A stretch of DNA of 64,000 bases, taken from assembly GCF_021568705.1 (NCBI RefSeq), contig NZ_JAKGTH010000007.1, forward strand, positions 372,001-436,000. Reading direction: 5' to 3'. The translations under genes were made by a program, and so were the position numbers. The notes beneath the pieces are model-generated. The model did no database searches. It had not been told where the DNA came from and saw only the letters and a list, made by a program, of their open reading frames with translations. Of this stretch, positions 7,268 to 44,166 are shown one piece after another (within the stretch, counting starts at the first letter, position 1; every line of letters starts with the position of its first letter). The DNA comes from Gillisia lutea (GTDB lineage: Bacteria > Bacteroidota > Bacteroidia > Flavobacteriales > Flavobacteriaceae).

Positions 7268-7297
7268 TTGCTAAATGTATCAAAGATTGTATATTTG
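7268..7297 (+). promoter_or_regulatory. Promoter of the SRP RNA gene
   Basis: TTG at 7268-7270, a 19-base spacer, then TATATTTG at 7290-7297. This is an exact fit to the Bacteroidota primary-sigma promoter. The RNA 5' end (GGCAAG, from 7302) follows the final G by about five bases, which calibrates the other promoters in this window. Confidence 0.85.
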
Positions 7298-7301
7298 CAC
7301 C

Positions 7302-7396
7302 GGCAAGTCCCACACAACCAGCTCCTGCTGACTCCCCCAGGGCGGGAACGCAGCAAGGGTAAGCGGTCGTAGCGGTGTGATGTGGGTAGCTTGCCA
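7302..7396 (+). ncRNA. ffs: Signal recognition particle RNA, small (4.5S) type
   Basis: The RNA core of the signal recognition particle, which partners with Ffh to target inner-membrane proteins. The ends pair (GGCAAG ... CTTGCC), with the further helix CCCACAC against GTGTG/GTGGG. The apical domain has the conserved GGGCGGGAACGCAGCAAGGG segment with the asymmetric loop typical of helix 8. The length of about 95 bases is that of the short bacterial form. A T run follows the closing helix and could serve as terminator. The open reading frame running antisense through it is not a gene. Confidence 0.95.
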
Positions 7397-7440
7397 TTTT
7401 TTGTATCTGATATTTAAATTTTATCGCATCTTTGTGATCT

Positions 7441-41500: not shown

Positions 41501-43129
41501 TTAGGTTTGTATTACTCCCAGATTAAAATCCTTTGTAATGGGAGCGTGGTTAGCAGCTTCAATTCCGGTAGAGATCCATTTTCGGGTATCTAAGGGATCT
41601 ATAATTGCATCTGTCCACAGTCTTGCTGCTGCGTAGTAAGGGGAAGTTTGTTTATCATATCTGGCTTTTATCTTATCAAAAACTTCTTTCTCCTTAGCTT
41701 TATCTACTGTTTCTCCTTTTTTAGCCATAGATGCAGTTTCAATTTGAGCCAGTACTTTTGCGGCTTGAGTTCCTCCCATAACTGCAAGTTCGGCACTTGG
41801 CCAGGCGGCTATCAATCGGGGGTCGTAAGCTTTTCCACACATTGCATAATTACCAGCACCATAAGAATTTCCAATAATGATGGTAAATTTTGGGACTACC
41901 GAGTTACTCACGGCACTTACCATTTTTGCACCATCTTTTATGATGCCCCCATGTTCACTTTTACTACCTACCATAAATCCGGTGACGTCTTGTAAAAACA
42001 CTAAGGGAATTTTTTTCTGATTACAGTTAGCAATGAATCTTGTGGCCTTATCGGCAGAATCGGAATAGATCACTCCTCCAAATTGCATTTCACCTTTTTT
42101 TGTTTTTACAATTTTCCGCTGATTGGCTACAATTCCCACAGCCCAACCATCAATTCTTGCATAGCCGGTAATTATTGTTTGTCCGTAACCTTCTTTATAT
42201 TCATCAAATTCCGAATTGTCTACCAGGCGGTTGATGATCTCATGCATATCATATTGATCACTTCTCTTTTTTGGAAGGATTCCATAGATCTCTTGGGGGT
42301 CAGCTTTTGGTTTCTTTGCTTCTTTTCTATTGTAACCTGCCTTATCATAGTCACCAATTTTATCCATGATATTCTTAATGGTATCTAAGGCATCTTTATC
42401 GTCTTTGGCTTTATAATCGGTAACGCCGCTTATTTCACAATGAGTAGTAGCACCTCCTAAGGTCTCGTTATCTATAGATTCACCAATGGCAGCTTTTACA
42501 AGGTAACTTCCTGCCAGAAATATACTTCCCGTTTTATCAACTATAAGGGCTTCATCGCTCATAATAGGTAAGTATGCACCCCCGGCAACACAACTTCCCA
42601 TAACAGCAGATATCTGGGTTATTCCCATGCTACTCATTACGGCATTGTTTCTGAAAATCCTTCCAAAATGTTCTTTATCTGGGAATATTTCATCTTGTAG
42701 AGGAAGATAAACCCCCGCACTATCTACTAGGTAAATTATAGGCAATCTATTTTCTATAGCGATCTCTTGCGCTCTCAAGTTCTTTTTCGCAGTAATAGGA
42801 AACCAGGCTCCTGCTTTTACAGTAGCATCATTTGCCACTACAATACATTGCTTTCCTGCTACATGTCCAATCTTTACAACTACACCACCACTTGGGCAAC
42901 CTCCATGTTCTTCATACATTTCATCTCCCACGAAGGCTCCTACTTCAATTGCTTTTTGTGAATCATCTAAAAGATAATCTATGCGTTCGCGAGCAGTCAT
43001 TTTTCCTTTCTCGTGATGTTTTGCAATGCGTTTTTCACCGCCTCCCAGTTTTATCTTGGCAAGCTTATGCTTAAGGCTGGAGAGTAATAATTTGTTATGA
43101 TCTTCATTTTTATTGAAGTTGATATTCAT
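41501..43129 (-). CDS. Acyl-CoA carboxylase beta (carboxyltransferase) subunit
   Basis: The 542-residue biotin-dependent carboxyltransferase subunit, most like methylcrotonyl-CoA carboxylase beta (leucine degradation). Telltale regions are MTARERIDYLLDD, VDSAGVYLPLQDEIFPD, HFGRIFRNNAVMSSMG, and GGIIKDGAKMVSAV ... GNSYGAGNYAMCGKAYDPRL. No biotin carboxylase/carrier subunit lies beside it, so its partner must be elsewhere. Leads an operon with two secreted proteins. Confidence 0.9.
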   Translation of the reverse strand: MNINFNKNEDHNKLLLSSLKHKLAKIKLGGGEKRIAKHHEKGKMTARERIDYLLDDSQKAIEVGAFVGDEMYEEHGGCPSGGVVVKIGHVAGKQCIVVANDATVKAGAWFPITAKKNLRAQEIAIENRLPIIYLVDSAGVYLPLQDEIFPDKEHFGRIFRNNAVMSSMGITQISAVMGSCVAGGAYLPIMSDEALIVDKTGSIFLAGSYLVKAAIGESIDNETLGGATTHCEISGVTDYKAKDDKDALDTIKNIMDKIGDYDKAGYNRKEAKKPKADPQEIYGILPKKRSDQYDMHEIINRLVDNSEFDEYKEGYGQTIITGYARIDGWAVGIVANQRKIVKTKKGEMQFGGVIYSDSADKATRFIANCNQKKIPLVFLQDVTGFMVGSKSEHGGIIKDGAKMVSAVSNSVVPKFTIIIGNSYGAGNYAMCGKAYDPRLIAAWPSAELAVMGGTQAAKVLAQIETASMAKKGETVDKAKEKEVFDKIKARYDKQTSPYYAAARLWTDAIIDPLDTRKWISTGIEAANHAPITKDFNLGVIQT

Positions 43130-43278
43130 AGTAGCAATTTTATGGATTGTTCGGGTTTAATGCCGATATTTTAAAAATATGGCTTAAATAGCATCAAAGA
43201 ATTATTTAAGCCTCAGTATTCTGGCTAAAATACAAAAACGAAGCAATTTTATAAGAGAATTAAATCATTTAAATGTGC

Positions 43279-43286
43279 GATATTTG
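43279..43286 (+). promoter_or_regulatory. Near-consensus -7 box before a structured RNA
   Basis: GATATTTG differs from TAnnTTTG in its first base. It ends five bases before 43291, the outer edge of the structured element, the same spacing as at the SRP RNA gene. Confidence 0.45.
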
Positions 43287-43290
43287 TTAA

Positions 43291-43382
43291 GACTGCGCAA
43301 GGGATTGTAGCGGCATCGCCCTGCAGTAAAACGCAAGGGCATATAGCGAAAAGCCCAGTGCTGCCATTGCAGCAGGCGCCCG
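43291..43382 (+). ncRNA. Structured RNA element, resembles the Flavobacteria-specific 'Flavo-1' motif
   Basis: About 92 bases of unusually GC-rich DNA in an AT-rich gap. An outer GCGC (43295-43298) can pair with GCGC (43376-43379). GGG (43301-43303) can pair with CCC (43354-43356), enclosing GATTGTAGCGGCAT and ATATAGCGAAAAG. A central hairpin pairs GCCCTGC with GCAAGGGC (one bulge), and a second hairpin is GCTGC, CATT loop, GCAGC. I recall the AGCGGCAT ... ATATAGCG ... AAGCCC core as recurrent between genes in Flavobacteria. The Flavo-1 name is a guess from memory. It lies 17 bases before a small membrane ORF and could be its leader. Confidence 0.6.
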
Positions 43383-43398
43383 ATAAATACTTATTTGT

Positions 43399-43578
43399 AT
43401 GGGAATGAATAAAAATACCATTTTTGGCTGGGCTTCTTTTTTTACCCTGTTGGTGGGAATCGCATTGGTACTATTAGGGGTGTTGAAATATCCCGATTAT
43501 GCTATTGGATTTTCTACTGCCGGCATAGGTTTCTTTATTATGTCCTGGGTGTTTAATGCTTTAAAAGGACGAGTATGA
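43399..43578 (+). CDS. 59-residue two-helix membrane protein coupled to DinB gene
   Basis: An open frame read by hand from the ATG at 43399 (a second ATG at 43405 fits as well) to TGA at 43576-43578. It encodes 59 residues: a short polar start, a hydrophobic segment (ASFFTLLVGIALVLLGVL), a short YPDY loop, a second segment (IGFSTAGIGFFIMSWVF) and the basic tail KGRV. The stop overlaps the start of the next gene as ATGA, so translation is probably coupled. Unknown function. Confidence 0.72.
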   Translation: MGMNKNTIFGWASFFTLLVGIALVLLGVLKYPDYAIGFSTAGIGFFIMSWVFNALKGRV

Positions 43579-44051
43579 GAGATATAGAAATAAAAAAGCA
43601 ATTGGCAAGGCATATAGCAGGTGGGGAAGCATTTCTAACGGTAGACGAGATGTTAAAAGAGATTCCATTTTCTCAACTTGGAATACGCCCAAAGGAGTTG
43701 CCTTATTCTTTTTATGAGCTATTTTATCATATGCAGTTTGCTCAAAAAGACATTTTAGAATATTGTATTGCTACGAAATATCAACCTCACAAATGGCCTC
43801 AAGATTATTGGCCTTTAAAATCGGCTCCCGCTTCAACTAAGGAATGGGAAGATTTGGTATTGTCTTTTAAAAGTGAAAGAGAACGGTTTCAAAAGCTAGT
43901 CTTAGATCCTGAAACCATGCTAACCAAAAAGCTGAAAAAGGATACAGATCATACTTTAATGCGAGAGATACTATTGGTAATTGAACATAATGCCTATCAT
44001 ACAGGGCAACTTTTAATTGTGCTTAGAAGTTTGGGTTTACATCACTCATAA
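43575..44051 (+). CDS. DinB-family protein
   Basis: A 158-residue four-helix-bundle protein of the DinB/BstA superfamily, members of which act as metal-dependent thiol transferases. The metal ligands are visible: a histidine in ELFYHMQFAQKDILEY and the paired histidines in IEHNAYHTGQLLIVLR near the C-terminus. Bacillithiol-using organisms often carry several such proteins, and the YtxJ gene in this window points to bacillithiol; a link is inference. It begins inside the preceding small membrane ORF (ATGA overlap). Confidence 0.85.
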   Translation: MRDIEIKKQLARHIAGGEAFLTVDEMLKEIPFSQLGIRPKELPYSFYELFYHMQFAQKDILEYCIATKYQPHKWPQDYWPLKSAPASTKEWEDLVLSFKSERERFQKLVLDPETMLTKKLKKDTDHTLMREILLVIEHNAYHTGQLLIVLRSLGLHHS

Positions 44052-44166
44052 ATAATTAGATATGGCAGTGCAGATGATTTTTAAAATTATGATATTTGCA
44101 AAGCGAAAAAAATTAAGTTCGGTATCAAGAGATGTCGAGATTCAAATAATATTAAATACACTTATA

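Follow-up and report, generated by a model that had tools for sequence, protein, structure and literature searches.

A Flavo-1-type three-way junction as a candidate 5' leader structure of a small membrane protein message in Gillisia lutea

REP sequences are dispersed intergenic hairpins, and the leader of tmRNA must be removed. Flavo-1 (Rfam RF01705) is widespread in Flavobacteria, and the consulted portions of PMC9723704, PMC2864571 and PMC9029176 give no function for it; among transcripts of F. psychrophilum, as described in the consulted portion of PMC9723704, Flavo-1 matches lie in sense, in antisense or outside, with no preference. The same portion gives TAnnTTTG as the promoter consensus of Bacteroidota. 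By title and abstract, the literature held nothing on a Flavo-1 three-way junction or on a tmRNA leader element, a result that does not establish absence from print. The branched form of the elements described below, their strand asymmetry and their repeated placement at tmRNA make the function of Flavo-1 testable. The tmRNA placement, sense-only where found, provides test places in a phylum with little-known RNA biology, and the locus analysed here offers a single leader copy, of whose relatives one is intact and two are damaged.

We analysed a window of 64,000 nucleotides from Gillisia lutea, in which a GC-rich element and a box, GATATTTG, occupy the gap between a carboxyltransferase gene (41501-43129, on the opposite strand) and the gene of a 59-residue membrane protein of the CAL67264 family (43399-43578, forward strand; NF040514, 73.6 bits against a cut-off of 50). 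The start codon of a DinB-superfamily protein of 158 residues (43575-44051, forward strand; PF05163 30.6 bits and PF12867 27.9 bits, both above cut-off) overlaps the stop codon of the CAL67264 gene in ATGA, so that the two genes likely share one transcript. GATATTTG (43279-43286, forward strand) is a probable -7 box of the TAnnTTTG type, matching at 7 of 8 positions when both n are scored as met. Its frequency alone is unremarkable, with 5 occurrences in the window against 4.5 expected. Of 80 loci of the CAL67264 gene, ranging from Flavobacterium to Gillisia, 63 have the exact box upstream, which points to GATATTTG as very probably the old, ancestral promoter of this gene. It should be noted that these 80 loci were taken from 88, leaving out the duplicates L058, L060 and L071 and the uncultured L115-L118 and L120, all of the latter without the box. 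A further GATATTTG at 44091-44098 lies upstream of an EttA-like ABC-F gene (likely start 44168) and is possibly that gene's own promoter.

An earlier note, made from the sequence alone, had placed a promoter-like box before the element and no terminator between the element and the ATG, and both statements agree with our results: the box is present and conserved, and no terminator-like sites were found in 43130-43600. The linker between the element and the start codon (43383-43398, forward strand) is AU-rich, and the predicted unpaired probability across the region of translation start (43380-43398) is 0.35-0.96. The same note had likened the spacing between box and start to that at the SRP RNA. 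The Bacteroidales small SRP RNA (7294-7400, 101.3 bits) does have a box, TATATTTG at 7290-7297, but the Rfam match begins inside this box (7294), and the comparison is therefore not firm.

The element spans 43292-43382 on the forward strand and has the form of a Flavo-1-type three-way junction. Its closing helix P1 pairs GCGC (43295-43298) with GCGC (43376-43379), a variant that also occurs in L208, L217, L219 and L245. The Flavo-1 core, P2, consists of the 5' arm GGGATTGTAGCGGCATC (43301-43317), the tip hairpin GCCCTGC...GCAAGGGC (43318-43340) and the 3' arm ATATAGCGAAAAGCCC (43341-43356); GGG (43301-43303) pairs with CCC (43354-43356) at its base, TT/AA, GC/GC and AT/AT pairs belonging to the Flavo-1 core follow between this base and the tip, and the 5' arm carries the conserved internal-loop letters, with C43317 unpaired ahead of the tip. 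In the tip, GCCCTGC (43318-43324) pairs with 43333-43340 with one bulge; this tip is GC-rich, whereas the usual one is U-rich. P3, TGCTGC-CATT-GCAGCA (43359-43374), comprises the GCTGC-CATT-GCAGC hairpin (43360-43373) and the extra pair 43359/43374. Because this hairpin is a side branch, the fold is a three-way junction and not simple nesting. The four pairings that had been described as nested, checked pair by pair, are all present and were correctly listed, but the last branches sideways, and the TT/AA, GC/GC and AT/AT pairs of the core had been overlooked. The folding energy is ordinary (z -0.19; 85 of 200 shuffles equal or exceed it in stability), and stability was dropped as evidence for the element. 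The predicted minimum-energy fold (-32.9 kcal/mol) differs from the junction (-31.4 kcal/mol), and the predicted probabilities of the P1 and P2 pairs are about 0.1-0.5. As the fold is not unusually stable, the case for the element rests on homology.

The Rfam model of Flavo-1 matches the locus at 43286-43364 with 21.8 bits (E 0.038 when 501 bases are searched, E 0.0565 in a search of the whole genome), below its gathering score of 42 bits. An extended three-way-junction model, R1, built from 27 other copies with the window locus excluded (3 of the 27 rows, L206, L207 and L208, come from elsewhere in the G. lutea genome), gave a single match in the window, at 43292-43382, with 45.9 bits and E 1.6e-10. 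With the pair table of 87 elements, the 5' arm of P2 scored 14.5 and the 3' arm, including C43340, 13.8; the sum with final weights was 27.8, and the lowest sums of the 87 reference elements start from 21.4. All 9 of 9 core pairs are present, and none of 200 shuffles scored as high. The E-value of R1, together with the recurrence of the box before the gene (63 of 80 loci), places the element above chance, and we consider it almost certainly related to the Flavo-1-type junctions; it may also work like Flavo-1. Being below the curated score, it is named here as a three-way-junction variant and not as an Rfam member. The earlier suggestion of Flavo-1 was right as to kind, with both core arms matching, and the proposed search with the Rfam model did return a match, albeit one under the gathering score. 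The proposed count of copies in the genome yielded several dispersed ones, with 6 matches to RF01705 at E < 0.1 including the window element, 4 of them above cut-off, and 10 matches to R1 at E 0.01 or better. That the element is a chance GC-rich fold with no relation to Flavo-1 would agree with its ordinary folding energy and its Rfam score below cut-off; set against the E-value from a model not trained on the locus, and against the 9 of 9 core pairs in the related genome G011, this explanation is hardly credible. Two candidate explanations of the low Rfam score, element length as its sole cause and the junction alone, were rejected because other junction copies of the same genome pass the cut-off, and our guess is that the GC-rich tip is responsible. 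6S RNA was also set aside, as the genome's own 6S-Flavo match above cut-off sits on another contig.

At least one copy above the gathering score occurs in 31 of the 60 genomes searched, that of the window included, and single genomes hold 0 to 32 matches at E up to 1, both among the matches listed. We collected 105 elements with flanks, which are the stronger matches among those listed, so that genomes with many copies are unevenly sampled. Core arms were located by sequence and not by pairing, and 87 distinct elements were kept for the pair table after 18 had been dropped (16 with weak arms, 2 duplicates). Their 10 P2 pairs comprise 843 Watson-Crick, 18 G-U, 3 A-C and 6 other cases, and some loop letters are fixed in 87 of 87, for example G at position 12 of the 5' arm and A at positions 6 and 11 of the 3' arm. 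Junction copies exceed the Rfam hairpin, with an outer helix P1, the Flavo-1 core P2 and the side hairpin P3 after the core. The closing helix takes the form GCGTT/AACGC, GCGC/GCGC or GCGTG/CACGC and is present by a strict rule in 40 of the 87 elements; elements of class A are without it and read TAGCCC...GGGAAA..AGCT. In the A2 alignment of 27 junction copies, chosen from 35 candidates (left out were L172, L200, L238 and L241 for a doubtful P1, L214 and L222 as long, and L217 and L227 as near-duplicates), 98.9% of 610 cells are standard pairs, and both-sided changes occur in 20 of 23 pairs, a value reached in none of 500 shuffles. The 100% pairing of P1 is not independent evidence, since rows were partly picked for it; this does not apply to the arms of P2. 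The tip and P3 vary without constraint across the family.

The 105 elements lie mostly between ORFs and in either orientation, and 46 of them are antisense to both flanking ORFs, which were called by a simple longest-first rule that is blind to tmRNA. An excess of G-U over A-C persists in 35 elements antisense to both neighbours (7 versus 1). Host messages therefore do not select the folded strand in these copies, and their strand asymmetry fits single-stranded DNA as well as RNA. A TAnnTTTG box within 20 nt upstream of P2 is found in only 7 of the 87 elements, 4 of the 7 at tmRNA, and the box was ruled out as a rule of the family. With so few adjacent boxes and 46 of 105 copies antisense, a role as cis-leader cannot be a family rule either. 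Inspected by eye, other copies in genome G000 come before a likely promoter or follow a gene. Several class A elements (L166, L167, L169, L178, L186 and L192), from four genera (G020, G021, G029, G032), are antisense, and 12 nt separate the end of their Rfam match from the stop codon of the adjacent ORF. One element is kept at a single site flanked by dnaK and a gene resembling serine dehydratase, both identified by eye in L220; context places it there in seven Gillisia genomes (L213, L214, L215, L218, L220, L222, L225), and flank sequence in two more (L024 and L031). One element of the G. lutea genome had no match in 72,556 plasmid records, and 11 loci in viral contigs match the element pattern exactly.

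The distance from box to ATG is 15-17 nt in 10 Christiangramia, 15-16 nt in 10 Salegentibacter, 17-62 nt in 32 Flavobacterium and neighbours, 67-111 nt in 10 Salinimicrobium and 95-112 nt in 6 Gillisia; the Gillisia leader exceeds that of the sister genera by roughly one element. The syntenic leader of G011 scores 55.1 bits with R1 and 30.9 bits with Rfam (L071, identical sequence) and keeps 9 of 9 core pairs; its copy (L062) shows a paired change in the tip from GCCC/GGGC to TCCC/GGGA and is without a counterpart of P3. G001 and G010 still have an identifiable core, whose score is reached by 0 and 1 of 200 shuffles, with 6 of 9 and 3 of 9 core pairs standing, respectively. The leaders of G003 and G013 are of similar length with an unrecognisable core (score reached by 45 and 199 of 200 shuffles). 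R1 reports no match in any of these last four leaders or in ten Salinimicrobium leaders searched, and the core was not recognisable in the three Salinimicrobium leaders scored. The region upstream of the CAL67264 gene is different in G005 and G008, and the gene itself is absent between the same neighbours in G002, G007 and G009 (L051, L054 and L043). Conserved pairing in homologous loci, the point on which the earlier note would have let its reading fall, is thus found in G011 and damaged in G001 and G010, and this damage in close relatives looks like decay, not strict constraint. Among Gillisia, the CAL67264 gene is unmatched in G002, G006, G007, G009, G012, G014 and G015, and also in G004; DinB is retained in the first seven, of which G009, G012 and G015 are incomplete assemblies. 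Co-loss in one clade of G003, G010 and G013, which have 1, 2 and 0 R1 copies, was set aside, as a tree of 15 EttA fragments (G008 left out, with no usable sequence) does not settle whether the three group together.

These observations bear on the possibility that the family is a dispersed DNA element, whose fold matters as single-stranded DNA during copying or recombination and whose leader placement is incidental and decaying. The 0 to 32 copies per genome (E up to 1, among the matches listed), their position mostly between ORFs in both orientations, the G-U excess in the 35 antisense elements, the core damage in G001 and G010 and a Gillisia leader longer by roughly one element all fit such an origin. 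However, a mobilising enzyme was not identified, counts of Y1 transposases being unrelated to copy number, neither of the two loci compared (the CAL67264 leader and tmRNA) has a clean empty site or a target duplication, and the junctions at tmRNA are 19 of 19 in sense. On balance, we consider this explanation unlikely.

Upstream of tmRNA, a box, TATCTTTG, is conserved in 12 of 12 Gillisia, and in all but G003, G010 and G013 (9 of the 12) the space from this box to tmRNA contains a Flavo-1 junction. With R1 at E < 1e-4, a junction was found 17-180 nt upstream in 19 of 42 tmRNA loci (L246-L257, L266-L295), namely 9 of 12 Gillisia and 10 of 30 other genera, always in sense; 4 of the 19 are training rows of R1 (G000, G001, G009, G014). 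The Gillisia sample is the 12 of 16 genomes with a match over cut-off, and the other loci are those available for inspection in 30 of the 56 family genomes that have a match. The counts leave out G029 and G020, with an element upstream of tmRNA by coordinates, and L283 (E 0.48, sense, upstream); L281 has a junction match at another position and on the opposite strand. All 9 Gillisia junctions and 5 of the 10 others contain the Flavo-1 core, and the remaining 5 have a different P2 interior in the same frame. An exact TAnnTTTG stands at most 40 nt before the junction in 16 of the 19 loci and at most 3 nt from the R1 match in 12 (all 9 Gillisia and 3 of the 10 others). Descent of the tmRNA copies from a single ancestor would mean that the genera do not count as independent.

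The best reading of the junction, to which we give a probability of roughly 0.55, is an RNA structure that acts in cis at the 5' end of the CAL67264-dinB message and was captured from the dispersed family. The family relationship, the conserved box, the missing terminator and the sense orientation are apparent from the sequence. That the element is the 5' leader of the CAL67264 gene appears likely; that it acts in cis as an RNA structure at the 5' end is a more tentative proposal. Judging by the conserved box, RNA polymerase would start a few bases after GATATTTG, and by homology and pairing the first ~90 bases would fold into P1, P2 and P3, closing the 5' end in a helix. In what is the weakest step, the element would most likely affect message stability or early transcription, perhaps through protein binding at the near-invariant internal loops. 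As to its origin, the leader lengths suggest that a member of the dispersed family entered an ancestral leader of ~16 nt. A structure at the 5' end is favoured over an on/off switch because the start codon is outside the junction and a terminator is absent. Two observations argue against the leader mechanism: the core is damaged in close relatives, and 46 of 105 copies lie antisense.

The suggestion that the element is "a leader as well as an RNA" is supported in its first part, by the very probable old promoter and the missing terminator, and not in its second. A stand-alone small RNA made from the same promoter and ending before the ORF would agree with the Rfam type of Flavo-1 ('Gene; sRNA'), with the entries RNA = y and cis-reg = n in the table of Weinberg et al. 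2010 (PMC2864571, consulted in part) and with the adjoining box, but it is improbable given the absence of a terminator before the ATG and the same box preceding the gene with a leader of 15-17 nt in sister genera. Even less probable is a riboswitch or attenuator of the membrane protein gene. A conserved-motif RNA in sense directly upstream of an ORF is what such a regulator would look like, yet no terminator-like sites were found in 43130-43600, other copies lie before unrelated genes or after genes, the tip and P3 vary freely, and close relatives that retain the gene have a damaged structure or none.

Around the proposed cis-acting leader a wider reading can be ventured, although we hold it with considerable doubt: Flavobacteriaceae may have an unrecognised superfamily of modular three-way junctions with a constant frame and exchangeable P2 interiors, Flavo-1 being one. 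Copies lying between a promoter and its gene would make up the 5' end of pre-tmRNA and of a small number of messages, the present one included, and would be read there by a common trans-acting factor. The proposed frame consists of P1 GCGTT/AACGC, GGGAU/AUAGCCC at the base of P2, and the side hairpin P3. Other P2 interiors occur in elements that share the position of P1, the base of P2 and the hairpin P3: GAGCTC...GCGA in L312, L314, L315, L317, L332, L270 and L291, AAGCCC...GAGGACTT in L311, L313, L316, L331, L336 and L337, and AGCTC...GGGACT, or similar on either side, in L318-L321, L323-L330 and L333-L335. Some elements of the last type still partly score as Flavo-1. L312, L315 and L317 occupy one place in three Gillisia genomes, and L313 and L316 another in two.

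Compared with the known systems, the Flavo-1-type elements resemble those of REP/RAYT as dispersed intergenic hairpins but are longer and branched, and mobilisation of the REP/RAYT kind was rejected, as the number of copies is not in step with that of Y1 transposase genes (Flavo-1, among the matches listed, versus Y1: 25/0 in G032, 24/0 in G018, 4/13 in G002; the G. lutea genome has 0 Y1 genes). With Flavo-1 (RF01705; Weinberg et al. 2010, PMC2864571, as far as consulted) the window element shares the P2 core, with its GGG/CCC base and UU/AA, GC/GC and AU/AU pairs, the two 3x3 internal loops with near-fixed letters and the extra C before the tip. The structure line of RF01705 is one hairpin, whereas the window element and the 27 copies of A2 are three-way junctions with P1 and P3; the window element differs further in its GC-rich tip and in a score below the Rfam cut-off. 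The tmRNA junctions of Gillisia are arranged as here, with a promoter box, then P1 a few bases on, then the gene, all in sense. They precede tmRNA, however, whereas the window element precedes a messenger, and the P2 interior at tmRNA is other than Flavo-1 in 5 of 10 non-Gillisia genera, whereas P2 of the window element is the Flavo-1 core.
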